56,176 bases of DNA, from NCBI GenBank assembly GCA_016929115.1, contig JAFGJL010000079.1, positions 1 to 56,176 of the forward strand, given 5' to 3'. The translations under genes were made by a program, and so were the position numbers. A model generated the notes under the pieces. That model searched no databases, had not been told where the DNA came from, and saw only the letters and a list, made by a program, of their open reading frames with translations. Shown piece by piece: positions 10,101 through 44,916 of this stretch; position 1 is the stretch's first letter; each line of letters opens with the position of its first letter. Source of the DNA: Candidatus Omnitrophota bacterium. Lineage in GTDB: Bacteria > Omnitrophota > Gorgyraeia > 2-01-FULL-45-10.

Positions 10101-10323
10101 TGACCGTCCCGACCGCTTCCTCGACCGGCTTGGTGATCAGGGTCTCTATCTCTTCGGGCGCGGCGTTCTCGTAAGGAGTGATGACAGTCAGTTGCGGATA
10201 AACGATCTGTGGGAAGAGCTCCTGGGGAAGGAGCTCTAGCGATATGATGCCGAAAATAAGTATGCCCGTGACGATCATGATGACCGTTACAGGCCTTTCG
10301 ACGGAGAATCTGGCTAGGTTCAT
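7138..10323 (-). CDS. RND-family efflux permease (first permease of the operon)
   Basis: 1061 aa; FSVERPVTVIM, FGVGSLVDCAIVVVENIF, GGIVVNNAIVLIDCIN, RLRPILMTSVTTILGLVPMA. Confidence 0.94.
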   Translation of the reverse strand: MNLARFSVERPVTVIMIVTGILIFGIISLELLPQELFPQIVYPQLTVITPYENAAPEEIETLITKPVEEAVGTVSGVKRIHSISREGLSMVIAEFGWNQNINFAALGMREKIDLIKERLPREAEEPVVLPFNPFDKPILILSVTTSIERSPVLLRELIRRMIKDELEKVEGVASATISGGLEREIQVDVSQDKIFARNIPILDVSKAVTNANLNYPAGTIKESFYEYLIRTLGEFEYVRDIENIAVGSEAATGQEGPYRGQPEMSMAQRSPISRDRRLIYLRDVATVTDTVKERTSYSRYNGRENLSIAIQKQALGNTVRTISKVKKKLEEMRPDIPKDIDIAVVYDQSEFIKSSIAGVWNAAWQGGVLVFLVLYYFLRNFWSAFIVTLTIPISVMSTFALMFFSGVTINMMSLGGLAFGVGSLVDCAIVVVENIFRHMQMGESPKDAAVAGANEVTVAISGSILTTIVVFLPLIFVVGIIGQISKDFALTVTFSLLASLVASMTIIPLLSSRGVKMGKGVTLEDENDLSKLDTTGAMAKLRKFYGGLLQVYIAQRKKAYSLTFMIFLASMSLFIFMDKELMPKVDTGQFMIKIDMPAGTRVDVTNALSDAIEKYILTIPQVDNVNTTVGSSREATTKHVLERLGPHQAEIAINLKKKRKLKTNDVVQIIKNHIGGMDVGDARIEYGLQENVLATGFAAAAPVTIDIKGPKLNKLESLAREIQKRLSGIPGVYGVKSDMAEASPETKIFIDKDRASLYGLSVTDIAQTALIGLKGVIASKFKEKGQEFNIRVRMQEKDRDDFAKLGRLQIQSPSGISVPLSNVARFGKGKGPSEIKRSNQQRTVLVYANIYDRPLKDVTQDVNAMLDGLDVPKDYTVKLAGQTEEMKESFVSLQNAITAAFLLVYMIMAALFESLWQPLIIMFTIPLSLIGVAVALFVTRTSVSAYVLMGVGVLGGIVVNNAIVLIDCINLFLSKGMSVRDAVVNSSKIRLRPILMTSVTTILGLVPMAFLGGEGSELRAPMAITVMGGLAISTFLTLIVIPTLYLTVTEWRDKVFKRKKK

Positions 10324-10355
10324 GGCAAAACCTTCTTAAAATAGGTAAAATAGGT

Positions 10356-10423
10356 AAAATAGGGACAGACACCTATTTTATAGGTCGCGATAGACGCAGA
10401 AAATAGGTGTCTGTCCCTATTTT
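10356..10423. repeat. REP/BIME-like perfect 24-bp inverted repeat
   Basis: AAAATAGGGACAGACACCTATTTT (10356-10379) and AAAATAGGTGTCTGTCCCTATTTT (10400-10423), 20-nt spacer; preceded by short AAAATAGGT tandem copies. Confidence 0.9.
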
Positions 10424-11718
10424 CAAATAAGGCCTTCCTGGACTTCCGCTATCTCGACTTTTGTCTTGTCTTTCAACTCTTCCTGTATCTCGACAATGAT
10501 GAGTTCGTCCTCTTTAAGCCCTTCCGCTATCTCGACAAGGTCCTGAGTCATATACCCGACTTTAACCTTTCTTATCTCCACAATCCCGTATTCGACCCTT
10601 TCCTCCGGCTTCAGCTCGGGCTTCGGCGCCTCTTTCTTCTTACCCAGGCCGAAGAATCCCCTCTTTCCCTTCGGAGCCTTTTCGGCACCCTCCTGTTGGG
10701 GCTCTTCCTTATTTACGACGTACACAAAATAATCCTGCTCTTTTTTCTTGAGCGCGGACGACGGGATGACAAGGGCGTCTTTCTTCTCGTAAGTAGCGAT
10801 GAGCGCTCTGACGAACATGCCGGGCTTTAAAAGCTCGTCTCTATTCTCAAGCTCGACCTTGATGACCTCGGTCCTCGAGCGCCCTTCGATGATGGGCGCC
10901 ATGCGGTCGACCACGCCGCTGAACGTTTTCGTCGGGTAGGCATCGACGAACACTTCGGCCCTCTGGCCGAGCGCCACCTTCGGGATGTCCCTCTCGATGA
11001 TATTGAACTCGGCATAAACCTTGTCGATCGTGATGAACGTGCCTATCCTCTGCTCGTAGCTGGGGTTAAAATAGCTGCCGACATCCATCAGTTTGGAACC
11101 GAGTAGCCCGTTCGACATCGCGTAGATATTGGTCTTGTCAAGCTCGCTCTTGGCCGATTCGTACTCCAACTTTGACTGGTCGAGCTTGATCTGGTTTATT
11201 GCCCCTATTTCGAAGAGTTTTTGCTGCTTATTGAGCTCCACCTCGGCGTATTTCAGCTTCAGGAGCGCGTCCCTCTGGACAAGGCTCGCTATGATGTCGC
11301 CCTCCTGCACCCTTTCTCCCTCCTCAAAGTTGAAGCTTTCGACGATGCCCGGCACCTGGAACTTAAGGTCTATCTCCTTAAAGCCTTTGACGTTCCCCAT
11401 CGCCGGCAGCGTATCCTTAAAATCAGTCCGCTTTATCTTCATGACCTTGACCGGTATCGCCTCTTCCTCGAACGTGATCGCCGCGGCCTTCTTCGCGGCT
11501 TCCGGCTTCTTCTTAAAGAGCGCCTTTTGGACGTTGCCGAACATGCGCGCCAGGATTATCAGGGCGACGATCGCTATCAACAGGGTAAATATGAATTTCT
11601 TTTTCGCCGCCGGAGTCTTCAGGTCAGGCCTGGGTATCTTCGCTTTTACAAGGAGGCCTTTGATCTTCAAAGCGAAACCGGCCAAAAGAGTCTTCATTTT
11701 CGCCATCATTTCTTTCAT
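10423..11718 (-). CDS. RND efflux periplasmic adaptor (HlyD/MFP family)
   Basis: 431 aa; N-terminal TM helix, lipoyl/barrel-like GIVESFNFEEGERVQEGDIIASL and ..GVVDRMAPIIEGRSRTEVIKVELENRDELLKPGMFVRA. Confidence 0.9.
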   Translation of the reverse strand: MKEMMAKMKTLLAGFALKIKGLLVKAKIPRPDLKTPAAKKKFIFTLLIAIVALIILARMFGNVQKALFKKKPEAAKKAAAITFEEEAIPVKVMKIKRTDFKDTLPAMGNVKGFKEIDLKFQVPGIVESFNFEEGERVQEGDIIASLVQRDALLKLKYAEVELNKQQKLFEIGAINQIKLDQSKLEYESAKSELDKTNIYAMSNGLLGSKLMDVGSYFNPSYEQRIGTFITIDKVYAEFNIIERDIPKVALGQRAEVFVDAYPTKTFSGVVDRMAPIIEGRSRTEVIKVELENRDELLKPGMFVRALIATYEKKDALVIPSSALKKKEQDYFVYVVNKEEPQQEGAEKAPKGKRGFFGLGKKKEAPKPELKPEERVEYGIVEIRKVKVGYMTQDLVEIAEGLKEDELIIVEIQEELKDKTKVEIAEVQEGLI

Positions 11719-11730
11719 ATACGCTGCCCC

Positions 11731-13683
11731 TTATTTTTTCGCGGCACTTCCCGGTTCCTCTTCAAGCTTCAGGTAATCCTCGAGGCCGACCGCCTTGTTT
11801 ATGCTCGCCACAGAAACGTAGTAATCGTTCATCGCCTGCGAATGGCCGAACTTCTCCTGGCCCAGCTTTGTCATGCTCTCTATGACGTCAGAATCGAGCG
11901 CCTCATCCATCTGCCGCCTGAACTTCATGAACTCCAGGTCCTTGGTCTGGTATTCGACCTTCTTTAACGCTGTGTCTATCTCTATCAGGGATTTCTGGTA
12001 ATTGAAGCACCCCTCCTTGACCTCGAGCGTGACGTCCTGCTTTACTTTGACGAACTCCTGTTTTGCCCTGCTGAGGTCTATGTCCGCGGACTGTTTGTCA
12101 GAGAAGTATTTGAGGTTGTCCAGGAGGTTCAGTGTCACTGTCGTCGTCGTGGCTTGCGTGCCCTGGTACGTGCTCACGACCGGCACCCATTGTTCTCTAG
12201 TCTGCGAATATTCCATGGTGTTGCCCCAGGCCGGCATGCTGGCTTTTATGCCTGCATACCACTGCTGGCTGAGCTTCCGCTCCACATCCCCCGTGACCGG
12301 CGTATAATCGAAATCCTCCGCGACGTAATGCTCTTTCGCCATGCCCCAGTTGCCCATGAAGTCGATCTTGGGCCAGCCCTTCGCCTTCGCGACGTCCTTC
12401 TCGTATTTGTAATATTCTATGCTCATCGCGTTTATCGCTATTTCCGGCCTGTACATGAAGGCGGCCCGGAGCGTCCGCTCGAAATCCACGTTAAAACGCC
12501 TGAACTTGAACTTAGGCGCGATGCTCACGCGGTCATTGGGAGCCAGGTACATCGCCTGCTTCAGGATCAGCTCGGCCACTTCGACGTCACCTTCGGCCGA
12601 AACAAGCTGAAAATGCGTCTGGTTGGTCTTTGCCTCGACGTTCAGCGCCTCTATCTTTGAGACGAGGCCCTCTTCCGCCTCTTTCTTTGTCATCCCCGCG
12701 ATCTTGCCTATCTCCGCGGCAAGCTCCTTCTGGACCCTCAGGTTCTCGACGGATTTGGCGAGCGAGAAATACGCCCTCCTCACCTGGAGCACCAGCTCGT
12801 TCCTTATGCGATCGTAATCCTTCTTGACAATTGACAAGTTAGTCTCAGCTTGCTTCATCGTGAAGAAAAGCTCGCCGCCGTGGAATATGGGCTGCTGGCC
12901 TTCCATATATTCCTTCTTGCCGTAATACCTCTGCCCGTTGATCCTGCCGGTATATTCCTGCCAGACGGCCTTGAAGGTCGGGAGCATGTTGCGCCGCGCT
13001 TCCCACACACGCATCTCGGCAAGCTTCACGCTCTTGGTCGCGACCTGCAGTTGAAGGCTGTTCGCTACGGCCGTCTCTATGCACTCGTCAAGGCTCATGA
13101 GGGTCGGCTCCTTCGGCGCCTCGCCCTCTCCGATGTAGCCCACATCCTTATACCAGCGCGCCTTCTGCTCCTGCCTGGCCTCTTGCTTCCTTAATGCCGC
13201 TTCCGCCTTGCGCTTCTTTCCGGCTTCGAGCTGCTCCTTTTTGCGCTCAGCGGCCGCGGCCTTTTTCTTCGCTTGGCGGACCAACCTTTCCTGCTCGGCC
13301 TCTGCCTTGCGCTTCTTTTCTTCCGCCAGTTTTGCCTCGGCTGCCGCCTCTCTTTTGAGGCGCTCGACCTCTTCTTTTTCGGCTCGAAGCGCCTTCTTTC
13401 TAGCCTCAGCCTCGATGCGCGCCTCTTCCAGCAGCTCTTTTTCCAGCCTCTTTGCCTCTTCCTTTGCGGCGCGCTCCCATTCTTCACGCTCGGCTTTTGA
13501 CTTTTCGGCAAGCTCCTTTTCCTGACGCGCAAGAAGCTCTTCTTCGAGGGAGGCTTTTCCGGCCTCCGCTGCCTGCGCCAACACCGGTCCGCGGCACGGA
13601 AAAGAATAGGCGCTAAAAATGGTTATCGAGCATACTATACCTATAGTTGCGAGTCGCTTAATGTGCGCTGCTATCATTTTCAT
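11731..13683 (-). CDS. TolC-family outer-membrane efflux protein with a long charged N-terminal helix
   Basis: 650 aa; about 150-aa Lys/Glu/Ala-rich TolA-like segment followed by a TolC-like domain (SLDECIETAVANSLQLQVATKSVKLAEMRVWEARRNMLPTF). Confidence 0.85.
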   Translation of the reverse strand: MKMIAAHIKRLATIGIVCSITIFSAYSFPCRGPVLAQAAEAGKASLEEELLARQEKELAEKSKAEREEWERAAKEEAKRLEKELLEEARIEAEARKKALRAEKEEVERLKREAAAEAKLAEEKKRKAEAEQERLVRQAKKKAAAAERKKEQLEAGKKRKAEAALRKQEARQEQKARWYKDVGYIGEGEAPKEPTLMSLDECIETAVANSLQLQVATKSVKLAEMRVWEARRNMLPTFKAVWQEYTGRINGQRYYGKKEYMEGQQPIFHGGELFFTMKQAETNLSIVKKDYDRIRNELVLQVRRAYFSLAKSVENLRVQKELAAEIGKIAGMTKKEAEEGLVSKIEALNVEAKTNQTHFQLVSAEGDVEVAELILKQAMYLAPNDRVSIAPKFKFRRFNVDFERTLRAAFMYRPEIAINAMSIEYYKYEKDVAKAKGWPKIDFMGNWGMAKEHYVAEDFDYTPVTGDVERKLSQQWYAGIKASMPAWGNTMEYSQTREQWVPVVSTYQGTQATTTTVTLNLLDNLKYFSDKQSADIDLSRAKQEFVKVKQDVTLEVKEGCFNYQKSLIEIDTALKKVEYQTKDLEFMKFRRQMDEALDSDVIESMTKLGQEKFGHSQAMNDYYVSVASINKAVGLEDYLKLEEEPGSAAKK

Positions 13684-18959: not shown

Positions 18960-20111
18960 CTAATACCTGTACAACTCCGTGCACCTTGCGCACGCCGGGA
19001 AAAGCCCTTTTTCCTTCAGGGCCTGTCTGAACCGGACGGCCTTTTCGCCGTTCCAGATATCGGAAAATTTCCCGCTCCTTACATTGCCGAACGAATATGT
19101 GCTGTTGAGGCAAGGCCTCACCTCTCCGTCCGGGAATATGTAGGCTACTATCCACGGGCTTAAGCAACGGGCCGGATATTCGGTAGGCATATAACAGGGG
19201 TTGCGGTAATATTCGGCCATCGCCTTGCGTGAAAAATTCGGGTAGAGATCGACGCTGAATTTATATTTCCCGGAAAGGATGTCTTTCATCTTCGCGTGCA
19301 GGGCCTCGGGATCTATCCCTGGCTCGAATATGAAACCCTCCCAATCGCCGGACGAACAACCCAGAAGCTCGTCGTACGGTTTCTGCTTATCTAAAACATC
19401 GCGGCTCGTGAAGATGAGGTTGTGGAAGGTGAGAGAATCAGCCCCGGCCTCCCGCGCCACGTCCAGCATCTCGTCCAGGCGCTCGTAGTTGTATTTCGTT
19501 ATCGTGCACTGCAGATTCACGAGCGGCTTTTTCCTGCGGGCCGCTATTTTGACATCGCGCACCTTCTTTAAGCCGGACATGATCCTGTCGAAAAGGCCCG
19601 GCATGCCTCGTATATCGTCGTGCAGGGCCCTACCGCCGTCGAGCGAGACGTTAAGCTCGTCGAGCCCGCTCTCCACGATATCCTTAGCCGTATTCTCCAA
19701 GAGCGAGCCGTTGGTGATGACAAGGCAGTGCATGCCTTTTCTTTTTATGTGTTTTATGAGCGCGAGGCAACCCGCATAGAGGAGCGGCTCGCCTCCGAAA
19801 AGCGTTATGTTCGGCCTGGCCGCCGCCACATCGTCGACGAAAGAGACGAGCTCCTGCAGCGGTATCTCGCCTTTTACATACTCGGCGCTCTGTTTTTTCG
19901 TGACGCCGCCTTCGCCCCACTGGCCGCACATCTTGCAATGGAGGTTGCAGCGGTGCGTCAAAAAAAGCGTGACCGCCTCCGGATAAGAGCTCCTGCCGCG
20001 GCCAAGGAGATAATGAAGATATGCGGCCGACCGGTTTTTTAAGACCCTGGCCGCGTACAGAGGCTGGAGCATCGTTTTATAAAATACCCTTCTCAAGTTC
20101 CGCGGGAGCAT
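18960..20111 (-). CDS. Radical SAM protein with SPASM-like C-terminus
   Basis: 383 aa; THRCNLHCKMCGQ, GGEPLLYAG, C-terminal PARCLSPW..GEVRPCLNS..CARCTELYRY. Confidence 0.88.
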   Translation of the reverse strand: MLPRNLRRVFYKTMLQPLYAARVLKNRSAAYLHYLLGRGRSSYPEAVTLFLTHRCNLHCKMCGQWGEGGVTKKQSAEYVKGEIPLQELVSFVDDVAAARPNITLFGGEPLLYAGCLALIKHIKRKGMHCLVITNGSLLENTAKDIVESGLDELNVSLDGGRALHDDIRGMPGLFDRIMSGLKKVRDVKIAARRKKPLVNLQCTITKYNYERLDEMLDVAREAGADSLTFHNLIFTSRDVLDKQKPYDELLGCSSGDWEGFIFEPGIDPEALHAKMKDILSGKYKFSVDLYPNFSRKAMAEYYRNPCYMPTEYPARCLSPWIVAYIFPDGEVRPCLNSTYSFGNVRSGKFSDIWNGEKAVRFRQALKEKGLFPACARCTELYRY

Positions 20112-32677: not shown

Positions 32678-34225
32678 TCATCCCGCCATAATATTCTCAG
32701 GCAGGCCCTTTAAGAATGAACGCGCCCTCTCCCTGGCAAAATCATCTAAGCCCCACTGCCATATTATATACGCGTAAACGACAAAGGCGGCGATGAGGCC
32801 GCCTATAGTGAGAGGATGCAGGATATACGGGCTGAAGTTCTTAAGCCACCACAATAATAGCCCGCATACGAACACCGGCGCGAAAGAGCGTCGGAATAGT
32901 CTTAGATACCAGGCGAAAAGGCCCTCGCCGAATAATACGGCCGCGGCTTTATGAAGGAGCGCTGTATCCAGCAATGCTCGCGCCAGAAAAGCGAGCGCCG
33001 CGCCTGTGCCGCCGAACTTCCTGATCAATATATACGCGAGCGGGACATAGAAGATCACTTCGATGATGTGAAATGCGGCGGGGATGTGCGGCTTGCCCAC
33101 GCCCTGGAGGATGTTCAGGGAAGGCCCCGCCATCGCGTTCACCAAAACAGCTACGGCAAGGATGACGAGAATAGCCGCCGAGCGCTCGGCAAAATCCTCT
33201 CCTATCCAAACAGCGAGAAAAGACCTGCCGAAAGTGGCCAGGAAAAGAACGAAGAACGCGTACAGGAAAAGGATGTAGAGGGCGCTCCTGTAATAGAGCT
33301 CTCTGCTCGCTTCCTTTTCATGCGCGCTGTCCAGACGGCTGAAAGCCGGAAAGAGGACGGTTGAAAAAGAAGAACGGATGACCGAGAGCCGGTCGGTCAA
33401 AGCGAACGGCACGGAATAATAGGTAAGATTGGAGATGGAGCGAAGCGACGCCAGGAATATCTTTTCTATGTTGAGGAATATCGGCGTGGTAACGCTTGAT
33501 ATCGTGACGAATCCGCCGAACCTGAGGAGCTTGACCAGCGCTTTTGGGTCCCAGGCAGGTCTAGCCAGGAACGGAAACAAGTTCTTGGCGCTTATCCAGT
33601 AGAGGCAGACGCCGAGCGCCTGGACGGCGACGTTCGCGACAACAACCTCTTTGAGGGAGTACCCCAGCTTAAGCAATATCACGGTAACGCTCACCTGTAA
33701 AGAACCGAGCGCTATGCCGATGCGGTTCAGGAGATCGAACCTGCCCGCTGCCTGGATGATCGCGCTCACAGAACCAAGGACCATGGAGATAAAAAATCCG
33801 GCGGAGGCCGCTATAAGCGCAAAAAGGCAGACCCCCCGCAGATCCGCCGGTATCTTCAAGATCGTGTCGGTAAAAAAACGCGCCGACGAAATTATCGCCA
33901 GCATGCCTATCAGGCCCAAAAAACCATGCGCCGCAAGGCAGGACCAGAAAGTCCTTCTCACCTCGTCCTCCTGGCCGGTGTTAAGGTAGGAAGCGACGTA
34001 TTTTATCGACGCGGCGCCCAGGCCGAGCTGCAGGAAAGCGAAATATCCGACGACCACGCTCACAAGCGCATAGATCGCATAGAGGTCGACATTGAGCGCG
34101 CGCACTATGAAAGGGGTGGCAAAGAAGGCGAGGCCGAACATCCAGGCCTGGCCGATAAAATTCCAGAGTATATTCTTTATGATGCCGTGCGACAGGCGCT
34201 CTTTCTTTGCGTCCTTACCGGTCAT
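32678..34225 (-). CDS. Polysaccharide flippase (Wzx/MATE-like)
   Basis: 515 aa polytopic membrane protein with oligosaccharide-flippase-like N-terminus (IIKNILWNFIGQAWMFGLAFFATPFIVRALN). Confidence 0.82.
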   Translation of the reverse strand: MTGKDAKKERLSHGIIKNILWNFIGQAWMFGLAFFATPFIVRALNVDLYAIYALVSVVVGYFAFLQLGLGAASIKYVASYLNTGQEDEVRRTFWSCLAAHGFLGLIGMLAIISSARFFTDTILKIPADLRGVCLFALIAASAGFFISMVLGSVSAIIQAAGRFDLLNRIGIALGSLQVSVTVILLKLGYSLKEVVVANVAVQALGVCLYWISAKNLFPFLARPAWDPKALVKLLRFGGFVTISSVTTPIFLNIEKIFLASLRSISNLTYYSVPFALTDRLSVIRSSFSTVLFPAFSRLDSAHEKEASRELYYRSALYILFLYAFFVLFLATFGRSFLAVWIGEDFAERSAAILVILAVAVLVNAMAGPSLNILQGVGKPHIPAAFHIIEVIFYVPLAYILIRKFGGTGAALAFLARALLDTALLHKAAAVLFGEGLFAWYLRLFRRSFAPVFVCGLLLWWLKNFSPYILHPLTIGGLIAAFVVYAYIIWQWGLDDFARERARSFLKGLPENIMAG

Positions 34226-35589
34226 GGCGCAGCTCCTCTCCTCCCGGCAAGCATCTCCTCAAGCACCACGATTATGGCCGCGAGGAACCAAAACGGCTCC
34301 ATGATGCGGATGATGACAAAGACGGCCGCGGACGCCGATTGCGCGAGAAGGCCGATGAACCCGGCCATAAAACCCAGGCTGACCGCCCTGGCAAAATTGT
34401 TATCTTCTGCCATGCTATAGACACGTTTCGCGGTCCTGAAGACGACTATCAAGATCCAGGCAAAGAAAGTCAAGCCGACCACGCCTGTTTCGTTGAGCAC
34501 CCTTGTATATTGGTTGTCGATGACAACGCCTGCCGGTACGCCATACCCCAGGATAGGCCTGCTCTTCCATCGCTGAAACCCCACGCCCCATGAATCTATG
34601 CGCGCCGCCACGGATTTGTCTACGGAGATCTCATTACCAAACACCCTGTATGTCTTCCAGCGATAAGCGAACGTGTCCTTGACGCGTTTGTGCACCGCGT
34701 GCGGCGCCATCAGGGGCAGAAGGACAACGCCGACTATAAGGGCAAGCAAAAGCGGCAGGCGCGCCCTTCGGTCCAGGATGATAAATGTGGCGAGCATGGG
34801 AAGGAAGCTAAGCCACCCGCCGCGGGAGAGCGTCAGGAGAAAAGACAGGAAGGCCATGCAGCATAAGACAATAAGCGCTATCGTCTTATGCTCCGTTTCC
34901 GGATACAATATGAACGCTATTATGATCGCCGTCATAAGGAGCAGGTAGCCGGCGAACGTGTTCGGCTCTCCTCCCTCCCCCTCAAAAGGCGCGGTTACAC
35001 GCCCGCCAAGAGGTGTTTGCGTGAGCGCGTATACGCATACCAGAAAACAGGTAAGCAGTAAGAAAGCGACGAACTTTTTCGCCTGTTTCGTCGTCCTTAA
35101 ATTATTTGAGACCATGAAGAAAAGCAGGAAATATTCCACATACTTGAGCACATAAAAGGCTACATGCGCGGCTTTCAACCGCCCTTCCATGATGCCGATG
35201 AAAGAGGAGATGAGGCAGGTGATGATATAAAGGAAGATGGGGATGTTGAGGGGGGTCGTCTTGAGCAGTCCCAGCTCTTTCTTGATCGCCATCTTCGCGA
35301 TCCAGCCTAAGAATACAACGATCAGAAAAACGTCGTCTGCCCGAACCACGACGGCGCGGCCGGTGACTTCGCCGATGGCGTATTCGGGCGAAAGCAACAT
35401 CGAAAATATCAATATTATGAGCGCGAGGTCGGTGTTGAAGAAAGATATGCTAAAGACAATGCTCCCGAGGATGAAGATCAGCGGATATTTCACAGGGAGG
35501 CCTATAAACGTGGATATGAGCAGGATCGCGAGAAAGGCGAGGATAATGACCACGCCGATTGTAGACTGGCCTTGTCGGTTACGCATCAT
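34222..35589 (-). CDS. O-antigen ligase/polymerase-like membrane protein
   Basis: 455 aa polytopic; LTLSRGGWLSFLPMLATF; PILGYGVPAGVVIDNQYTRVLNETGVVGLTFFAWI. Confidence 0.82.
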   Translation of the reverse strand: MMRNRQGQSTIGVVIILAFLAILLISTFIGLPVKYPLIFILGSIVFSISFFNTDLALIILIFSMLLSPEYAIGEVTGRAVVVRADDVFLIVVFLGWIAKMAIKKELGLLKTTPLNIPIFLYIITCLISSFIGIMEGRLKAAHVAFYVLKYVEYFLLFFMVSNNLRTTKQAKKFVAFLLLTCFLVCVYALTQTPLGGRVTAPFEGEGGEPNTFAGYLLLMTAIIIAFILYPETEHKTIALIVLCCMAFLSFLLTLSRGGWLSFLPMLATFIILDRRARLPLLLALIVGVVLLPLMAPHAVHKRVKDTFAYRWKTYRVFGNEISVDKSVAARIDSWGVGFQRWKSRPILGYGVPAGVVIDNQYTRVLNETGVVGLTFFAWILIVVFRTAKRVYSMAEDNNFARAVSLGFMAGFIGLLAQSASAAVFVIIRIMEPFWFLAAIIVVLEEMLAGRRGAAP

Positions 35590-35590
35590 C

Positions 35591-37519
35591 TTACGCGACC
35601 GTTTCTTTGACCTTGCCTTTTTTTCCTTCCCCTTCCTTTTCGCCGTACCGGTAATGGTAGCGGTAATAAGGATACGTCGTGATGGCCTCCGTCTGGGGTT
35701 GTGTATGGTTCAGGACGACGCCGGCGATCTTGGCTCCTGCTGATTCCAGCTGTATCTTGGCGCGTATGAGCGCCTCGCGGCTCGTCCGCCCTATCTCGTA
35801 TACGAGGACGACAGCGTCCATCTTAGGCGCCAGGATGCTCGCATCGGTGACCGGCAATACGGGCGGAACATCGAATATTATGGCGTCGAACCGGTTCTTG
35901 AGCTTTTCGATAAGTATCGACATCTCCTTGGACTTCAATATCTCCGCCGGGTTATAGGAAAGGCGGCCTGAGGGGATGATCCATATATTATCCAGTCCGT
36001 GCGTCTTCCTGATATCGTCAAAGCTCATCTCCCCCACCATGACATCCACTATGTTGTAGAGCACGTCCTTGAAGCTCACCGCGCCGGTGACGAACTCGTT
36101 CAGGCCCGGCTCGCGCTTTATGCCGAACGCTTTATCAAGGGCAGGCCGCCTCAGGTCGGCTGAGACCAGGAGCGTCTTTAACCCCGCCTGAGCCATTACT
36201 ATACCAAGATTGGACACGACGTTCGTCTTGCCCTCGCCGGGACCTGAGCTCGTCACAAGGATGGTCTTTCTGGACGGGTCAAGTTTCAAATTGGTGTTTA
36301 TATTACGGTAGGCCTCGGCCGCCGTGGAGGTCGGCTCGTAATGCGCCACGAGATAGATGGGAGATGCCTCCGCCTCTTTCTTCGCGGCCGACGGCATAAA
36401 CCTTTCCACTATCATTCCGAGAAGGCCTTTTCTCTTCTGAGTTATGCCCTTGCTGAGCGGCGGGACCAGGCCCAGCACCCTCAATTTCACCACGCGTTCT
36501 ACGTCGTCGATCGTGCCGATCGATGTATCGAGCGCTTCGAAGATAAAGGCCGACGATACGCCCAGGACGAGCCCCATGAGCAGCCCCACCATGATCCCCA
36601 TGCCCTTACCGCTCGACACAGGCATGTTCGGCATGAAGGCGGGGTCGATGATGGATACGTCGCCGACCTTCTGCGCCTCGGTGATCCTGGCCTCCTCGAG
36701 CTTCTCCTTGAGGAGGGCGTAGAGCTTCCTGTTCACTTCGACCTCCCTGACCAGGCGCGCGTATTCAAGCTGTTTCGATGACAACCCTTTCATCTGCTCG
36801 CTGAGTTCCTTGATCTGGGTCCTGAGCTCGATCACCCTGGGGTGTTTCTCGGTATATCTCTGCGTCGCCTCGGCAAGAGCGAATTGCGTATCGATCAACT
36901 TCTTTTGGATGGGATCTGCCAACATCACCGTCCTATCCTCTTCGCCGAAGCGCCGCAATTCTTCTTCCGTGACCCTCATCCTGTCTTCGAGCGCGCCGAG
37001 CTGTTCTTCGATGAATTTGCGCGTATGGCGGACCTGTTTCGCCTTTTCCGCGAGATTTTCTTCTATATAGACCTCGGCGACCGTATTGGCCAGGTCCATC
37101 GCCCTTTTCGGGCTGTCGGCCTTCGTGGAGATCCTGATCATGTTAGTCGCGCCGATCCTCTCGGTCTCGATAGATCCCTGCAGCGCGCTGACGGCCTCAT
37201 TGACCTTATTCAGCGGCGATGCTTCGGCCACCATGCCCATGCGGATCGCCGTCTTCCGCATCACATTGTAACCCTTGACCGTCTTTGTTTCCGATTCCAG
37301 CTCGTCGCCGGCGCTGTAGAGGATCCAATCGGTGAGGAGGCCGGCAACCGTCTTGCGTTCGACGATCTTTACGGTCGTGCTCGATTGGTAGACGACAGGT
37401 TCACTGGAGACATAAAAAATGGATCCCAGGGTCACGATGACCGTCACCAGGATGACCGCGGACCTTCTCTTGCGAAGTATGCGCAGGTAATCACTGATAT
37501 TAAGTTCGTATTTTGCCAA
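35591..37519 (-). CDS. Wzc-type chain-length determinant / bacterial tyrosine autokinase
   Basis: 642 aa; Wzz-like N-terminus, Walker A VTSSGPGEGKTNVVSNLG, VSADLRRPALDKAFG, C-terminal Tyr cluster TTYPYYRYHYRYGEKE; TTG start with AAGGAG upstream. Confidence 0.92.
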   Translation of the reverse strand: MAKYELNISDYLRILRKRRSAVILVTVIVTLGSIFYVSSEPVVYQSSTTVKIVERKTVAGLLTDWILYSAGDELESETKTVKGYNVMRKTAIRMGMVAEASPLNKVNEAVSALQGSIETERIGATNMIRISTKADSPKRAMDLANTVAEVYIEENLAEKAKQVRHTRKFIEEQLGALEDRMRVTEEELRRFGEEDRTVMLADPIQKKLIDTQFALAEATQRYTEKHPRVIELRTQIKELSEQMKGLSSKQLEYARLVREVEVNRKLYALLKEKLEEARITEAQKVGDVSIIDPAFMPNMPVSSGKGMGIMVGLLMGLVLGVSSAFIFEALDTSIGTIDDVERVVKLRVLGLVPPLSKGITQKRKGLLGMIVERFMPSAAKKEAEASPIYLVAHYEPTSTAAEAYRNINTNLKLDPSRKTILVTSSGPGEGKTNVVSNLGIVMAQAGLKTLLVSADLRRPALDKAFGIKREPGLNEFVTGAVSFKDVLYNIVDVMVGEMSFDDIRKTHGLDNIWIIPSGRLSYNPAEILKSKEMSILIEKLKNRFDAIIFDVPPVLPVTDASILAPKMDAVVLVYEIGRTSREALIRAKIQLESAGAKIAGVVLNHTQPQTEAITTYPYYRYHYRYGEKEGEGKKGKVKETVA

Positions 37520-37725: not shown

Positions 37726-38523
37726 ATGAAAAAGATGATCGAAGCCCAAAACATCACCAAGGATTTTCGCCCTCCTGTTTCTCTGCGTCAGATATTCCGG
37801 CCCGGGCCAGGGACCCTGGGGACAACGCGCGCGCTCGACGACATCTCATTCTCGCTCGAGAGCGGAAAACTCCTGTGCGTACTCGGCCCTAACGGCGCCG
37901 GCAAGACGACGCTTCTAAAGATAATAGCCGGCCTTATCCTGCCCGACATGGGCGCGCTCACCGTAGACGGGTTGATCCATGAAAGGGATGACGAAAGGAT
38001 AAGGTCTATGATCGGCCTGTCCTCGTTCCACGAGAAGGGCTTCTATTGGCGGCTTACCGGGCGGCAGAACCTGGAGTTTTTCGCGGCGATGTACGGCCTT
38101 GACAGCCGCGCGGCGCGCGAAAGGCTCAAAAAGCTTTTCGGGCTTTTCGGCGTCACATACCAGAACAAACGATTCGACGCCTATTCGGCCGGCATGAAGC
38201 AGAAGATCGCTATTATCAGGGCGCTTCTCAACGACCCGCGGCTTTTACTTTTCGACGAACCCACGAAGAGCCTGGACTACGGATCATCGTTTCGCCTGAT
38301 GCATTTGATCAAAGACACCCTCGTCGGCAAAGAAGGAAAGACCGTCATCTTCACCACGCATCACATGGACGAGGCGGCCGAGTTCGCGCATGTTTTTCTG
38401 ATCCTGCATAACGGAAGGCTCCTTGACGCGGGTACGATCGACGAGCTGCGGCAGAGAGTAAATAAGCCGGCGGCTTCGCTCGGCGAGATATACGTTTCGC
38501 TCACGAGAGATCGGCCATGCTGA
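37726..38523 (+). CDS. ABC transporter ATP-binding protein
   Basis: 265 aa; LGPNGAGKTTLLKIIAGL, YSAGMKQKIAIIRALLNDPRLLLFDEPTKSLD. Confidence 0.93.
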   Translation: MKKMIEAQNITKDFRPPVSLRQIFRPGPGTLGTTRALDDISFSLESGKLLCVLGPNGAGKTTLLKIIAGLILPDMGALTVDGLIHERDDERIRSMIGLSSFHEKGFYWRLTGRQNLEFFAAMYGLDSRAARERLKKLFGLFGVTYQNKRFDAYSAGMKQKIAIIRALLNDPRLLLFDEPTKSLDYGSSFRLMHLIKDTLVGKEGKTVIFTTHHMDEAAEFAHVFLILHNGRLLDAGTIDELRQRVNKPAASLGEIYVSLTRDRPC

Positions 38524-39323
38524 GAAAGATCATCGCATTCGTAAAAAAGGACTTTCTGGTAGAATCCAGCTATAGGTTCGCCCTGGCCTTCAATATATTC
38601 GGCATCCTGACAAGCCTCCTGGGATATTTCTTCATCGATAAGCTCTTCGGTCACCGCATAGTAAACCAATTGGAGGAGTTCGGGGTTAACTATTTCTCAT
38701 ACGCTCTCCTTAGCACGGCTGTCTTCGGGTATGTCGGCATGGGCTTAAGCTCTTTCTCTGAGCGCATACGTTACGAGCAGGTGGAGGGCACTCTCGAAGC
38801 GATCCTGCTGACGCCCACGCGCACAGCCACTCTGCTCACTTCCATGGCGCTGTGGAACATGCTCCTCACGACGGTGAATATAGTGATCTACGCCGTAATA
38901 GGATCGTGTGTATTCAAGATCGACTTTACGCGGGCCGATATCCCGGCCACGCTCATGGTCTTTTTCCTGACCATACTGTCGTTCAGCAGCCTGGGGATAC
39001 TATCCGCGAGCTTCATCATGGTCTTCAAAAGGGGAAATCCGGTCGGTTGGATCATTGGAGGGCTGGAAGGCCTGATAGGCGGCGTTTATTTTCCAGTCGC
39101 CGTGCTGCCGGTCTGGCTGCAAGCCCTGGCGCAATTCTTCCCGATCACGCACGCTATCCGGGCCGTTCAATTATCCGTTTACAAAGGCTATTCTATCGCC
39201 CACCTGGGGAAGGAGATATGTTTCTTATCCCTTTTTTCGATCGTTCTTCTTCCGCTTAGCTTTTTTGCGTTTAATCACAGCATAAGGAAGGCAAGGATCG
39301 ACGGGAGCTTGTCACAATATTAG
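38517..39323 (+). CDS. ABC-2 type transporter permease
   Basis: 268 aa, about 6 TM; overlaps the ATPase gene; GGLEGLIGGVYFPVAVLPVWLQALAQFFPITHAIRAVQ. Confidence 0.87.
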   Translation: MLRKIIAFVKKDFLVESSYRFALAFNIFGILTSLLGYFFIDKLFGHRIVNQLEEFGVNYFSYALLSTAVFGYVGMGLSSFSERIRYEQVEGTLEAILLTPTRTATLLTSMALWNMLLTTVNIVIYAVIGSCVFKIDFTRADIPATLMVFFLTILSFSSLGILSASFIMVFKRGNPVGWIIGGLEGLIGGVYFPVAVLPVWLQALAQFFPITHAIRAVQLSVYKGYSIAHLGKEICFLSLFSIVLLPLSFFAFNHSIRKARIDGSLSQY

Positions 39324-40123
39324 GCTGGGTATTTCTCAAGGACAGCGTACCGCGAAGATTCCGAGTCGTCGCCCATCTCTTTTACTCTAAGGCCCGCCTC
39401 GGCCGCTTCAGCCGCCACCTCATCCGTAGTCGGGAAATGGCGCATGAAATGGAACGACGGTAAGAATTCGTCTCCGGGCGAATAGCCGATATTGCCTTTC
39501 AGGATCCTGGCTACGCCCCTCCGGAAGCCGGCGAGGCGCTCATTCGCCCTTGCGGGACTATAAAAAAAGTGAACCACCGCAAGGCCGCCGTCCTTAAGGA
39601 CCTTTCTTATATCCGAGAGCATCTTGACTCTCATCCTCCTGGCTGGAATAGCGCTATACATGTAACATGAAACGATGCAGTAGTCAAAAATATCGCCCCG
39701 GACCGGCATATTGAGCATATCGCCTATGCGAAAATCCGCCTGAACGCCTTCCCTGACAGCGGTTTCTTTCGCGGCGTTTATCATGGGTTCGGATGAGTCG
39801 ACCCCCGTAACATTAAAACCCATCTTCGCAAGAGCGATTGATTCCCTGCCGCCGCCGCATCCAAGCACCAGCATTGATCCATTGCTTATAAAATAGTCTT
39901 TAAGCACCTTGTCTTCCCACGGCATGAGGCCTCTTTTTATGAACTTCCAATCGCCGAATACGTCCGTTTTGCCATAAAACTTTCGCGTATAATCAACTAT
40001 CTCTTCCGGAGTCATGAGAACAGCCAGGAAGGAGCCCATAAAGGACGATATGCGCAGGGCGCACTTCGCGAATGCCTCGACCGCTAAGCTCAGCCCCATG
40101 TATAGCCGCGGCACTATCCGCAT
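39320..40123 (-). CDS. Class I SAM-dependent methyltransferase (last gene of the RiPP-like operon)
   Basis: 267 aa; MLVLGCGGGRESIALAKMGFNVTGVDSSEPMI; overlaps the upstream PqqD-like gene. Confidence 0.82.
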   Translation of the reverse strand: MRIVPRLYMGLSLAVEAFAKCALRISSFMGSFLAVLMTPEEIVDYTRKFYGKTDVFGDWKFIKRGLMPWEDKVLKDYFISNGSMLVLGCGGGRESIALAKMGFNVTGVDSSEPMINAAKETAVREGVQADFRIGDMLNMPVRGDIFDYCIVSCYMYSAIPARRMRVKMLSDIRKVLKDGGLAVVHFFYSPARANERLAGFRRGVARILKGNIGYSPGDEFLPSFHFMRHFPTTDEVAAEAAEAGLRVKEMGDDSESSRYAVLEKYPA

Positions 40124-40392
40124 ATGCCGGCCAATCCTTTATTGATGATCTCTTCTAAAAATTTAAAAATGTCCGTCCGCAGGTCTTTTTTTTCGCCTTC
40201 GAATTCTTCGTCAATCCGGACTACTATATCCCCTGCCGGCGTCTCACCGTCAAGCAGTTCCCACACCCTCGTCCCCACTTCATCCAGGGGATAGATCATA
40301 TTGCCCTTCGTGTCCACGATAAGCGCCTCTTCCTCTATGACCCTCCAGGCGATATCACCATTCCTTTTAATGATGCTACGCGATAGATCCAT
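40114..40392 (-). CDS. PqqD-like (RRE-type) protein
   Basis: Start MDLSRSIIKRNGDIAWRVIEEEALIVDTKGNMIYPLDEVGTRVWELLDGETPAGDIVVRIDEEFE at 40392. Confidence 0.82.
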   Translation of the reverse strand: MDLSRSIIKRNGDIAWRVIEEEALIVDTKGNMIYPLDEVGTRVWELLDGETPAGDIVVRIDEEFEGEKKDLRTDIFKFLEEIINKGLAGICG

Positions 40393-41167
40393 CGATATAC
40401 CTCCATAGTTCCGGCTCTGCCTTAAAATGGAACTCATAGCACGGCACGCCTGCCGCGAGCGCGTCGAGCGCGGCAAATACGGCGTTGAACGTCCTTATGT
40501 CGGCCGGCGGCATAATGACGCTGCGGAATAATTCCTGTACCGCCTCCTTCCTGCTTAGCGCGCGGTGCGCGAACTTGTCATCTTTGCGCAAAAGCATGAG
40601 TGCCCTTATCGGCCCTCCGGTATTTTCGGACACTTTTTCGAACTCACCGGCGAACGGCGTCGCGTACGCGTAATACGCATTCCCGGACAGCGCGATAGCC
40701 GCCGTCTCATCCGTAAGGATCTTGTCTTCGCCCGACAGCCGCGCCACCGTCGTCTTGCCGCTCTCCGACGGCCCGAAAAAGACATAGGCATGGCCTTTCC
40801 TTAAAACAGCCGAGGCGTGCAGAAGAAAGCCCTGCCTTCTTAATAACGTTACGGATGTCAAAAGTCGTAATACATCGGCTATGCCGAATTCGGCGCCGGT
40901 GGCAAGGGAAGCCGTGCCCTTTGCCATCTGCATGTCAAGATCGAAAGATGGCGTCCGGGCAAAAAAACGCTCGCCTTGCCATATCGGGACCGCGGAGTGA
41001 GACAAACCGTTTTTCTTTTTCCGCCAGGCGAGCACAACATCCATATCCGGCCGTGATGTCGAAAGGAAGAGCTTATAATTTTCCCTAACCCATGCTACCG
41101 GAGATCTATCCCGGCATCTTATCCGAAAAATAGCGCCGGCTATGTCAACGCTGGTTTCGTGCCACAC
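40376..41167 (-). CDS. HPr-kinase-like (HprK-fold) protein
   Basis: 263 aa; GFLLHASAVLRKGHAYVFFGPSESGKTTVARLS (Walker A), ILTDETAAI. Confidence 0.78.
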   Translation of the reverse strand: MWHETSVDIAGAIFRIRCRDRSPVAWVRENYKLFLSTSRPDMDVVLAWRKKKNGLSHSAVPIWQGERFFARTPSFDLDMQMAKGTASLATGAEFGIADVLRLLTSVTLLRRQGFLLHASAVLRKGHAYVFFGPSESGKTTVARLSGEDKILTDETAAIALSGNAYYAYATPFAGEFEKVSENTGGPIRALMLLRKDDKFAHRALSRKEAVQELFRSVIMPPADIRTFNAVFAALDALAAGVPCYEFHFKAEPELWRYIDGSIA

Positions 41168-41597
41168 GGCTCAATACCCTTTTCGCGTAGATAAATGGCC
41201 TGGCCAGTAACGGTAGGGCATATCCAAACGCCAATCCCGCTACGCGGCAAAGCATATTTTCGACGGGTATGTCAATACCGCATCTTTTAACGCTCACTAT
41301 CTTGCCCGCAAACAGGTCGACGGGCACCGGGGAGTCGAAGCGTAAGGTCGCGTCACCTTTTGTTTTAAGAAAGCGCCGGCCGTCTTTAAGCACCTTTTTA
41401 AAAACTCGATGGCACGTAAAACCGCCGTCCACGTTCTTGAACACGGCGATGTCGCCGGCGCAAAGATCATTGAACGAACAGAGGCGCGCCTTAGCCGTCG
41501 AACCGGATGAGAAAACAGGGAACATGCTCTTACCGATTATATTTACCGTAAAAAAGGCGCCTATATCGGGGCATTCCCCGGCACAACCGTGTGTCAT
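41145..41597 (-). CDS. S24/S26-like (signal peptidase I-type) peptidase
   Basis: 150 aa; VNIIGKSMFPVFSSGSTAK, CAGDIAVFKN, FTCHRVFKKV, FLKTKGDATLRFDSPV. Confidence 0.72.
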   Translation of the reverse strand: MTHGCAGECPDIGAFFTVNIIGKSMFPVFSSGSTAKARLCSFNDLCAGDIAVFKNVDGGFTCHRVFKKVLKDGRRFLKTKGDATLRFDSPVPVDLFAGKIVSVKRCGIDIPVENMLCRVAGLAFGYALPLLARPFIYAKRVLSRVARNQR

Positions 41598-41617: not shown

Positions 41618-41785
41618 TTAAGACACCACCCATGAGTTCTTCCCTTTGCCTCTCCCCATCCTCACGGCTTTATTCCCACATGCAACGGTATCGACACGGC
41701 AACAGAGCGGGGCGCCAGCCCCGGCCTCCAGCATGCTCATCCCCTTAAGCTCGGGTCTCTTATACGTCTTCTTCTTATTCTTCAT
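41618..41785 (-). CDS. Candidate RiPP precursor peptide (55 aa; not in the ORF track)
   Basis: MKNKKKTYKRPELKGMSMLEAGAGAPLCCRVDTVACGNKAVRMGRGKGKNSWVVS; its ATG overlaps the radical SAM stop codon (ATGA, 41782-41785) and is preceded by GGGGAGG. Confidence 0.75.
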   Translation of the reverse strand: MKNKKKTYKRPELKGMSMLEAGAGAPLCCRVDTVACGNKAVRMGRGKGKNSWVVS

Positions 41786-42858
41786 GCGCCGCCTCCCCTT
41801 TTTGAGACTATCTCATATTCTATCCTCGACATCGTCTCCAATGTCTTATAGCATTTCCTGATATCGTTCGTCTCCAGGTACGCCATCCCGATGCATTTCC
41901 TGCAGACGCCCACATACCGGCAAGCCGGACATGACTCGAAATCCCCGTATGTCTTGATCGATCTTAACTCCTCCATGAGCGTGGTGGTATTTTCCCATAT
42001 TTCCTTAAAATGCCTCTTTTTAACATTTCCCATGGGGATGAAGAGCTGCGGACACGGGTGGACGTCGCCATACGGTGTTATATAACAAGTGGTGAGGCCC
42101 GTGCCGCATACCGCTTTTTGAAGCGGATCTCCAGAAAAAGGTTTTTCACGCGCCATCTCATCCGTTATTATCATGGACATAAATTCGTATATGTGCTTTT
42201 CGCTGAGCTGGTATTGCTGGGGCGTCTTAGTGCCGTCGTTCTTCGGACAGACCTCGATCGTAAAATCGTAGTCATCGGCCCCCAGGCGGCGCGCAAACCC
42301 GGGTATCTCCTCGGCCTGATGAAAATTCGGTTCCATAATAACGGATTTTAAAACTACCCTTAGCCCCTCCCTCTTTAAAATCCCCACGGCCGCTGTGAGT
42401 CTTTCGAAAGACCCTTTCTTCCCTGTAATGGCATCATGAACTTTTGCGGTCGAGCCGTATATGCTCATCTCGACCGACTTGGGCATCAATCCTTTCATGC
42501 GTCGCGCGATCGCTTCATCTACCAATGTGCCGTTCGTGAAAAGCGTAAGGCAAAAATTCTTCCGCTTCGCATGTTCGGCGACCTCAAAGAAGTGCGGATA
42601 CGCAAGGATCTCGCCTCCCGAAAGTGTCAGGTACAGCGCGCCCGATTCCGCCAGCTGGTCTATGACGCGCCTTATCTCCGCAAGCGTCATCTCGGTCTTG
42701 CCTGCCAAAAAGCCGTCGGAGAGTTCCCGGCAATAACAATGGATGCAGCTGAGGTTACACCTGTGCGTGAGGTCGATATGCACCCAAAGCGGGATCCTCT
42801 TCTCTTCCGCCCTGCCTACCAATCTTCTGACAGCCGCTTCGGCGCCCGGGTATATCAT
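41782..42858 (-). CDS. Radical SAM/SPASM peptide-maturase-like enzyme
   Basis: 358 aa; LTHRCNLSCIHCYCRE, LSGGEILAYPHF, C-terminal C-rich region GDVHPCPQL..FESCPACRYVGVCRKCIGMAYLETNDIRKCYKT. Confidence 0.88.
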   Translation of the reverse strand: MIYPGAEAAVRRLVGRAEEKRIPLWVHIDLTHRCNLSCIHCYCRELSDGFLAGKTEMTLAEIRRVIDQLAESGALYLTLSGGEILAYPHFFEVAEHAKRKNFCLTLFTNGTLVDEAIARRMKGLMPKSVEMSIYGSTAKVHDAITGKKGSFERLTAAVGILKREGLRVVLKSVIMEPNFHQAEEIPGFARRLGADDYDFTIEVCPKNDGTKTPQQYQLSEKHIYEFMSMIITDEMAREKPFSGDPLQKAVCGTGLTTCYITPYGDVHPCPQLFIPMGNVKKRHFKEIWENTTTLMEELRSIKTYGDFESCPACRYVGVCRKCIGMAYLETNDIRKCYKTLETMSRIEYEIVSKRGGGA

Positions 42859-42861
42859 GGT

Positions 42862-43941
42862 TCAGTTATCCGCTTTAAAGGCGAGAGACCGCAGTCCTGT
42901 AAGCATGAAATGCGCCTTACTAAGTAATGTTCTATTCATCGCCAGATACAAGAGAACGCACTTGCCTTCCCCCGGAAAATCGTGATTCGATATATACCGA
43001 ATCATATATCTCTCTAATAATGACGGGCCGCCGGGCCTTAAGCTCTTAAAAAATCCCGAAGGTATGTCCGTATAAAAGGCGCTCTTGGCCAACAAAAGCC
43101 CTGTATACAATGGAACAGTAAGCCCCCATCGCCTAGCCGTACCGGCAAGCGCCTCCCATGATATCGCATCTCTATAATGCGCTATGTAAGAATGGATGTC
43201 GTATAAAAGGTCTATGCGGGAAAAGCCGTGGCTTAAACCGTGACTGGCAAGCGCAAGGACCATATGCTCAGGATCCATGACGCGCACGTTCGCGCCGGCG
43301 GTTCCGCCAAACGGCGCGGAGCCCTCCCATATCTCGCGCATTTCTATGCCGGTCCAGTTCATCTTAAAAAAAGGCGCCGATAAATTGACTATATGCCAGT
43401 GCAGGTGCACGGGCGCCGCCAGAAAAGTGTCCTTTTGCCCGTTGAAATACATCTCCGCCTTCCTGCCTCCCTGACCGCCCATGATCGAAGGACTGCCGTT
43501 TTTACCCGGATGGCGATAGCCCAGAGATTCGAGTATCCCGTGAGCCCTTTCGACATCTTCCTCGCGCACCAGGATATCGATGTCCGACATCTTCCTTGTG
43601 CCCGCCACATGCCGGTATATCGTACGCGCAAAATACGCCCCTTTCAATAAGATCAGGTCGACGTTCGCGCTCCCGAGCGACGAACAGACCCTGTCGAATT
43701 CATCCATAATAAAAATATTCCTCAGTGTGTTTATCTGACAGGATTTTTTCAACCTGCGGCGGATATCTTCCGGGACAGCGATCTCGTCAAGGTCTTTTAT
43801 CTGATTAAAGAGGAGCGTCTCGACTTTTGAATACTCGGCAACCGATAAAAGCTTTTTCCAATTGAGGCATGCGGAGGATATCCGGCCGTATCGCCCGTTA
43901 AGGAGGGTCAGGAGGTCCTGTTTCAGCGGAGAAAGGCGCAC
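42862..43941 (-). CDS. Nucleotidyltransferase family protein (NTP_transf_5-like)
   Basis: 359 aa; LILLKGAYFARTIYRHVAGTRKMSDIDILVREEDVERAHGILESLGY, HLHWHIVN. Confidence 0.82.
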   Translation of the reverse strand: MRLSPLKQDLLTLLNGRYGRISSACLNWKKLLSVAEYSKVETLLFNQIKDLDEIAVPEDIRRRLKKSCQINTLRNIFIMDEFDRVCSSLGSANVDLILLKGAYFARTIYRHVAGTRKMSDIDILVREEDVERAHGILESLGYRHPGKNGSPSIMGGQGGRKAEMYFNGQKDTFLAAPVHLHWHIVNLSAPFFKMNWTGIEMREIWEGSAPFGGTAGANVRVMDPEHMVLALASHGLSHGFSRIDLLYDIHSYIAHYRDAISWEALAGTARRWGLTVPLYTGLLLAKSAFYTDIPSGFFKSLRPGGPSLLERYMIRYISNHDFPGEGKCVLLYLAMNRTLLSKAHFMLTGLRSLAFKADN

Positions 43942-43947
43942 AGCGTA

Positions 43948-44916
43948 TTACCACCTTCTGCTATGAAGACTGTCGCCTAATAATACGCCTTTTTGCAGAG
44001 GATTCATGATCTCGTCGGCAAGCCAATTGGCATCCGAGAGGGGTTTCTTCGGCACGAAGACGACATCCTCCGACTCGAGGACGATATTGTGCTCCGGGAA
44101 TCCCCTGAGCGCGAGGTTCGCGCTCACCCTGATCACGCGGGGATCGCCTGAGTATACCCCCTTGAGTATGACAATGGTCGAGGCGAGGGAAGAATCGGTG
44201 AATCCTTGCGCCATGGCGACCGCCTCAAGAACGGTGGTCGCGCCGCTCAACGTATACACGCCCGGCCATTTCACCTCACCGAGCACGATGACCTTCTTGC
44301 TACCCATCCTCTTTATCGATACCGACACCTGCGGATTCTTTACGTATTCCTCGAGCCGTTTGGCTATCTCCTTACCAAGCTGCATTGTAGTTAGCCCCTT
44401 TGCCATGACGGAGCCTACCAGGGGGAACGAGATCCTGCCGTCAGGTTGCACGGTAACATTCCCGCTCAAGTCTGGATTTTGCCACACGAATACATGGAGA
44501 CCATCTCCCGCGCCAAGGAGGTATTCTGCTGAATACCCGCGAGGAACAAATTCCGCCTTTGCCGTAGAGACCTTCCGGTTCCATTTCCAGAAGTTGTATT
44601 CTTGCTTCTTGGCGGCTGTCTTCTTTTTTTTGGCCGTCTCCTCGCCCTTTCCGCCACCGACCAGATCGAGGGCCATTTGGAAACGTTTTTCCGCTTCCCC
44701 ATATTTCCCCTGCCCGTAGAGCTCGTTTCCTTCATCGTAGAGCATTTTTGCCTTCGCCTGCGGTGAGCCGGGAGGCGCGGCTCTATCGTCTACCGGCACG
44801 CTGTCGTATATCGGCGCATCTTCGCCTTCTGTGCCCCTGTGCTTTGACTCTGCGTAAGAATACGACGCTGACGCGATCAAAGCGGCTATGACGATGATAT
44901 TGATAAATGCTTTCAT
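43948..44916 (-). CDS. Polysaccharide export protein (Wza-like) with N-terminal TPR-like segment
   Basis: 322 aa; signal peptide; YLLGAGDGLHVFVWQNPDLSGNVTVQPDGRISFPLVGSVMAKGLTTMQLGKEIAKRLEEYVKNPQVSVSI; SLBB-like VLGEVKWPGVYTLSGATTVLEAVAMAQGF. Confidence 0.9.
   Translation of the reverse strand: MKAFINIIVIAALIASASYSYAESKHRGTEGEDAPIYDSVPVDDRAAPPGSPQAKAKMLYDEGNELYGQGKYGEAEKRFQMALDLVGGGKGEETAKKKKTAAKKQEYNFWKWNRKVSTAKAEFVPRGYSAEYLLGAGDGLHVFVWQNPDLSGNVTVQPDGRISFPLVGSVMAKGLTTMQLGKEIAKRLEEYVKNPQVSVSIKRMGSKKVIVLGEVKWPGVYTLSGATTVLEAVAMAQGFTDSSLASTIVILKGVYSGDPRVIRVSANLALRGFPEHNIVLESEDVVFVPKKPLSDANWLADEIMNPLQKGVLLGDSLHSRRW

Follow-up and report, generated by a model that had tools for sequence, protein, structure and literature searches.

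The window, i.e., the entire analyzed stretch of 56,176 nucleotides from a Candidatus Omnitrophota bacterium, carries a gene for a 55-residue peptide within a head-to-tail gene string. In order, this string codes for a Wza-like protein, an NTP_transf_5 nucleotidyltransferase, a radical SAM/SPASM protein, the peptide, an S26-like peptidase, an HprK-like kinase, a PqqD protein and a methyltransferase, and is followed by a convergent ABC-2 transporter (Table 1). Wza/Wzc export genes flank the cluster (34222-37519 and 43948-44916), and the genome contains two Poly_export copies. A second radical SAM/SPASM gene of the window (18960-20111) is located inside a glycosyltransferase/aminotransferase locus, with no link to the peptide seen. 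An initial annotation had described the peptide and its coupling to the radical SAM gene; it mentioned neither the C-terminal Ser nor the wider family, nor the genes for kinase, nucleotidyltransferase, PqqD and S26 peptidase.

Table 1 Features of the peptide cluster, with positions in the window, strand and supporting evidence.
Feature	Position	Strand	Evidence
Convergent ABC-2 type transporter; possible exporter	37726..39323	+	ATPase 37726-38523, permease 38517-39323
SAM-dependent methyltransferase at operon end, role uncertain	39320..40123	-	PF13649 1.5e-17; near the cluster in L075, L079, L080
PqqD-type RiPP recognition element (leader binder)	40114..40392	-	PF05402 8e-13; start codon chosen by eye
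HprK/PEPCK-fold peptide kinase; proposed C-terminal Ser kinase	40376..41167	-	Model pLDDT 92.7; Foldseek PEPCK and HprK/P
S24/S26-type (SipW/Sec11-like Ser-His) peptidase; proposed leader peptidase	41145..41597	-	TIGR02228 2.7e-10, below cut-off
55-aa precursor peptide gene	41618..41785	-	Leader KKTYKRPELKGMSMLEAGA, CC..C core, GKG, C-terminal Ser; conserved in 11 orthologues and the wider family
Radical SAM/SPASM peptide maturase, 358 aa	41782..42858	-	PF04055 3e-23, PF13186 3e-10; 4-nt overlap with peptide gene
Shine-Dalgarno GGGGAGG of peptide gene	41791..41797 (approximate)	-	Equivalent before 11/11 orthologues
NTP_transf_5 nucleotidyltransferase; proposed transferase onto phosphorylated Ser	42862..43941	-	PF14907 1.1e-48
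Wza-type polysaccharide export protein, next upstream in the gene string	43948..44916	-	PF02563 6.6e-27; co-location in relatives

The peptide gene

Coordinates and sequence of the 55-residue open reading frame agreed exactly with those first reported. The described ATGA overlap was verified to the base, the peptide ATG occupying 41785-41783 and the radical SAM stop codon TGA 41784-41782. The GGGGAGG proposed as an in-register ribosome-binding site is likewise present as the Shine-Dalgarno sequence of the gene, 6 nt upstream of the start (AAGGGGAGG-CGGCGC-ATG).

Because identity to even the closest relatives is about 50%, 11 orthologues were compared in all six frames in place of a codon dN/dS test. 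The mean pairwise BLOSUM local score was 107 for the peptide frame and at most 57 for the other five frames, and in-frame internal stops numbered 0 in the peptide frame versus 12 to 50 in the others. A Shine-Dalgarno sequence is located upstream of the open reading frame in all 11 orthologues. A tblastn search with the peptide alone, one of the checks suggested beforehand, retrieved the orthologue adjoining the 54%-identical radical SAM gene with E=4e-9. Frameshifts or stops in relatives, which the initial annotation had named as evidence against its reading, were absent across the orthologues, and the Cys/leader pattern, whose loss it had named likewise, is kept beside homologous radical SAM genes. 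On these sequence grounds, i.e., frame-specific conservation, absence of stops and a Shine-Dalgarno sequence in every orthologue, the 55-residue open reading frame is a real gene. Its short length and the lack of a database model might suggest a fortuitous frame where the radical SAM gene ends; the six-frame comparison rules this out and leaves it practically no probability.

The precursor family and its C-terminal serine

Nine aligned members share the invariant residues K5, Y8, P11, E20, G22, C28, C29, C36 and G46, and in comparison to its aligned relatives the window peptide has a 2-residue insertion ahead of CC and a divergent tail. The claimed leader-like start is conserved as Y/W..P.[LIVM] next to homologous radical SAM genes, the Gly/Ala junction is conserved among relatives and the Cys positions of the putative CC..C core are kept. 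From the basic tail, GKG is retained and the remainder is not conserved. Conservation of leader, junction and Cys beside homologous radical SAM genes supports the original proposal of a RiPP-type precursor coupled to the radical SAM gene. Radical SAM relatives, each with a like peptide adjacent, were found in genomes G295 (54% identity), G012 (48%), G231 (47%), G205 (46%), G268 (44%) and others.

Curation of the peptides adjoining related radical SAM genes yielded a set of 51, i.e., 55 machine matches minus four removed by eye. All follow the same plan of a K-rich start, Y/W..P and a Cys-containing core, mostly with three Cys. Besides the CC type, a second core type, [VIL][FY]E..L.C and usually LxCGK, occurs in Acidobacteriota, Elusimicrobiota, Nitrospirota, Pseudomonadota (Thermomonas flagellata, T. 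beijingensis) and others. A lipoprotein-like reading of L..C was ruled out by eye, a hydrophobic signal stretch being absent. In a tree of 70 radical SAM rows, the eleven enzymes that adjoin CC-type peptides group in a single clade (100/99). A short conserved precursor with leader and variable core is found beside a modifying enzyme, together with an RRE-type leader-binding protein in the cluster, as is expected for a RiPP. No credible match to Pfam or NCBIfam models was obtained for ten representative peptides, the window peptide included, and no description of this peptide family was found in the open-licence literature, subscription papers lying outside the search.

The family spans Omnitrophota, Acidobacteriota, Elusimicrobiota, Thermomonas isolates and others, and in Acidobacteriota and Thermomonas the peptide gene is positioned upstream of the kinase. 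The cluster is also present in isolated Thermomonas strains, with a FETMAL.CGK peptide at 4223-4390 of locus L117 and near 4261 of L139; these isolates make the family directly testable. Two further kinds of peptide were observed. Cys-free peptides with a YEKPKL-type leader lie beside radical SAM clusters (L036, 14464-14622; L046, 9242-9563), and longer Cys-containing peptides with an RVKLNPEQAVL motif, ending in Ser, lie beside other radical SAM arrays (L045, 1747-1950; L047, 5135-5338 and 10771-11022).

Of the 51 curated peptides, 40 end in Ser and 5 in Thr, and no other tail position approaches this. Given a Ser share of 11.6% in the preceding 15 residues, the binomial probability for the end residue is 5e-28, with the peptides not being phylogenetically independent. 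After thinning to <40% identity, the end residue is Ser in 11/19 and Thr in 2/19. When FE..L.C peptides were searched for with a pattern that left the end residue free, 29 of 31 ended in Ser and the other 2 in Thr; this set partly overlaps with the curated one. All 11 CC-type orthologues end in Ser. This C-terminal Ser or Thr matches the HprK-like kinase in the same cluster. The Ser-kinase pairing is not absolute, given a radical SAM subclade (L082, L091, L181 and L184, with the nearby L169) in which kinase and PqqD are kept and the C-terminal Ser is absent; most of the exceptions fall into this subclade.

Tailoring enzymes and proposed maturation

The gene set of the family comprises the radical SAM enzyme, a PqqD-type leader binder, an HprK/PEPCK-fold kinase, an NTP_transf_5 protein and an S26-type peptidase. 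Kinase and PqqD genes are each found near 46 of the 51 peptides, the missing ones mostly being on cut contigs. Among solved proteins, SkfB is the best relative of the radical SAM enzyme (E=3e-30, profile A1). As SkfB is the nearest solved protein and the cores mostly contain three Cys, the enzyme probably makes a Cys thioether in the core, and a radical SAM/SPASM maturase next to a Cys-containing core is the combination seen in sactipeptides and ranthipeptides. Against a thioether, the enzyme also resembles the AhbD, MftC, NirJ and PqqE profiles of NCBIfam.

In the kinase, H117, the P-loop K138 and D153 are invariant and are followed by E154 (D/E in relatives). These correspond to residues required in lasso-peptide kinases, which phosphorylate the C-terminal Ser of their precursors (PMC9266682, PMC10368454); BsfK phosphorylates an internal Ser (PMC10368454). 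Both components of a lasso-type phosphorylation module, an HprK-fold kinase with conserved H, K, D and D/E and a precursor ending in Ser, are found here, the one subclade excepted.

NTP_transf_5 is a single-copy gene in the window genome and is scarce in these genomes, lying inside the cluster in 9/9 tested. In pseudomycoidin, the action of a nucleotidyltransferase after the kinase results in a hexose on the phosphate (PMC9266682, PMC8498205). Glycosylation by the NTP_transf_5 protein would be an extrapolation from one in vivo study of PsmN, assuming that PsmN belongs to PF14907. The S26-like protein, with the motif GKSMFP...CHRVF, keeps the GxSMxP and HR motifs and has no membrane anchor ahead of the catalytic Ser, and therefore probably acts in the cytosol. 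The conserved E-[AV]-G-[AST] ahead of CC, its putative cleavage region, would obey the -3/-1 small-residue rule of signal peptidases. S26-like peptidase and NTP_transf_5 are fused into a single protein in 12 loci (L033, L034, L035, L038, L040, L094, L164, L173, L178, L179, L180 and L185), as counted from a single-sequence search.

A homologous ABC-2 permease is present near 24/42 peptide loci. Among 42 peptide loci of at least 8 kb, Wza or Wzc was found near 18, with ~2 expected by chance in a rough estimate, which makes a link of the cluster to exopolysaccharide likely. Poly_export occurs in one to four copies per genome in a set of 20 genomes partly chosen knowing that Wza was nearby, so that 18/42 is the less biased figure for co-location.

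We consider it probable that the open reading frame encodes a RiPP precursor subject to both radical SAM core modification and lasso-style C-terminal Ser phosphorylation, and regard this as the best explanation of the whole. Gene reality, conservation of family and gene set, homologies and Ser conservation were computed; every catalytic step is what we infer. In the proposed route, the stand-alone PqqD domain would bind the N-terminal leader K-K-x-Y-x-x-P-x-L and present the peptide to the modifying enzymes. The radical SAM/SPASM enzyme would modify the Cys core, most likely by thioether cross-link(s) from C28, C29 or C36, and the HprK-like kinase would phosphorylate Ser55. NTP_transf_5 would then probably add a sugar or nucleotidyl group onto the Ser55 phosphate, the S26-type peptidase may cleave off the leader near E-[AV]-G-[AST], and the ABC-2 transporter probably exports the product. 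Since the cluster often lies beside polysaccharide export genes, we propose, as a speculative extension with a small chance of being correct, a cross-linked peptide with a phosphate-linked sugar on its C-terminal Ser that acts on or is joined to the exopolysaccharide of the cell.

Co-location with Wza/Wzc loci can also be read differently: the peptide could be a sactipeptide or ranthipeptide made by the radical SAM enzyme, with the neighboring kinase, nucleotidyltransferase and S26 peptidase serving exopolysaccharide synthesis instead. In favor of this explanation, EPS/exosortase loci contain HprK-like proteins that go by other names (TIGR04352). We nonetheless consider it unlikely, as kinase and PqqD accompany the peptide even without Wza/Wzc nearby, both share homology with their lasso counterparts, and otherwise dissimilar peptides retain the C-terminal Ser. 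Lower still is the probability that the peptide is the source of a redox cofactor of the PQQ/mycofactocin type, in which the radical SAM enzyme would form a C-C bond or decarboxylate, PqqD present and proteases trim the peptide. MftC, PqqE, NirJ and AhbD do rank among the top NCBIfam matches of the enzyme and the cluster has a PqqD-type chaperone, but all such models score far under their cut-offs (MftC 129 of 265, PqqE 99 of 381 bits), by which membership in the PQQ and mycofactocin systems is ruled out. PQQ and mycofactocin precursors conserve Glu-Tyr or Val-Tyr; the residues conserved here are instead Cys and the C-terminal Ser. In addition, the identified cluster genes include kinase, nucleotidyltransferase and polysaccharide-export genes and no cofactor-dependent dehydrogenase.

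A structural or metal-binding role of the peptide, as a small protein of the EPS locus, with the radical SAM enzyme acting on another substrate, is very improbable. The peptide is indeed small and contains Cys, and gene order alone is no proof of a substrate; against this, the core type follows the radical SAM clade, the peptide and radical SAM genes are tightly coupled in translation, and the leader motif is a known recognition sequence of the PqqD class, as in the Sts system, where a PqqD-type RRE binds W/YxxP (PMC12710340).

Relation to radical SAM systems and lasso peptides

The preferred reading, a precursor with radical SAM core modification and C-terminal Ser phosphorylation, was compared with named radical SAM systems. 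Like the StsB/StsC sactipeptides and SkfB, the cluster has a radical SAM/SPASM maturase, and it has the PqqD-type RRE in common with Sts (PMC12710340). Unlike them, it contains kinase, nucleotidyltransferase and S26 peptidase genes in addition, and its peptides conserve the C-terminal Ser; the StsB sactipeptide maturase model NF045574 scored 106 of 625 bits, under its cut-off. The SynChlorMet cassette (kinase-like ScmC, PqqD-like ScmD, radical SAM ScmE/F) presents a similar radical SAM/PqqD-like/HprK-like trio. Its models remained far under their curated cut-offs (ScmE 101/400, ScmF 76/400, ScmD 30/100 and ScmC 19/125 bits), ruling out membership. The GeoRSP system likewise combines a radical SAM/SPASM protein with a PqqD-family chaperone, and membership was ruled out at 98/400 and 32/100 bits.

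A lasso peptide proper was ruled out as well, as the cluster lacks a cyclase and B2 is missing. In the window genome, the lasso cyclase family PF00733 is confined to contigs C1 and C48, with none on C33 and none in the cluster; the transglutaminase-like B2 protease PF13471 was found in none of 9 genomes. By sequence, the peptides constitute a new RiPP family, neither lasso peptide nor member of the named radical SAM systems tested. It is a precursor family without Pfam or NCBIfam model that extends across several phyla, including the poorly known Omnitrophota, and in which two tailoring logics seem joined. To our knowledge, core chemistry by radical SAM enzymes and the lasso-type module, in which C-terminal Ser phosphorylation is combined with a nucleotidyltransferase, are known only apart.

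The likeness to lasso clusters extends over several components. Clusters of the paeninodin/pseudomycoidin type share the YxxP leader, a PqqD-type B1, an HprK-fold kinase with H-K-D-D/E and a precursor ending in Ser (PMC9266682, PMC8498205), and lasso_PqqD_Bac is the best NCBIfam match of the PqqD gene, below its cut-off. HMMs built from the radical SAM clusters only recognized the kinase (4e-17), PqqD (3e-18) and NTP_transf_5 (8.5e-65) of locus L192 from Paenibacillus cellulosilyticus. This locus is of lasso type by B2 and PqqD matches exceeding the model cut-offs and by a best match to a lasso cyclase, and its candidate precursor ends in Ser; a PF14907 nucleotidyltransferase is accordingly seen in both kinds of cluster. 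The L192 cluster (5887-12677), of the paeninodin type with NTP_transf_5, is unannotated in the plasmid collection. The S26-NTP_transf_5 fusion has a parallel in some lasso clusters, where a nucleotidyltransferase and B2, the leader protease, are joined in a fusion (PMC8498205). Unlike lasso clusters, the window cluster has a radical SAM/SPASM enzyme, an S26-type peptidase and conserved core Cys, and an S26-type enzyme is suggested as leader peptidase instead of B2. The family would thus retain the lasso 'front end' of leader, RRE, kinase and nucleotidyltransferase, in which the radical SAM enzyme and the S26 peptidase appear to replace the cyclase and the transglutaminase-like protease.
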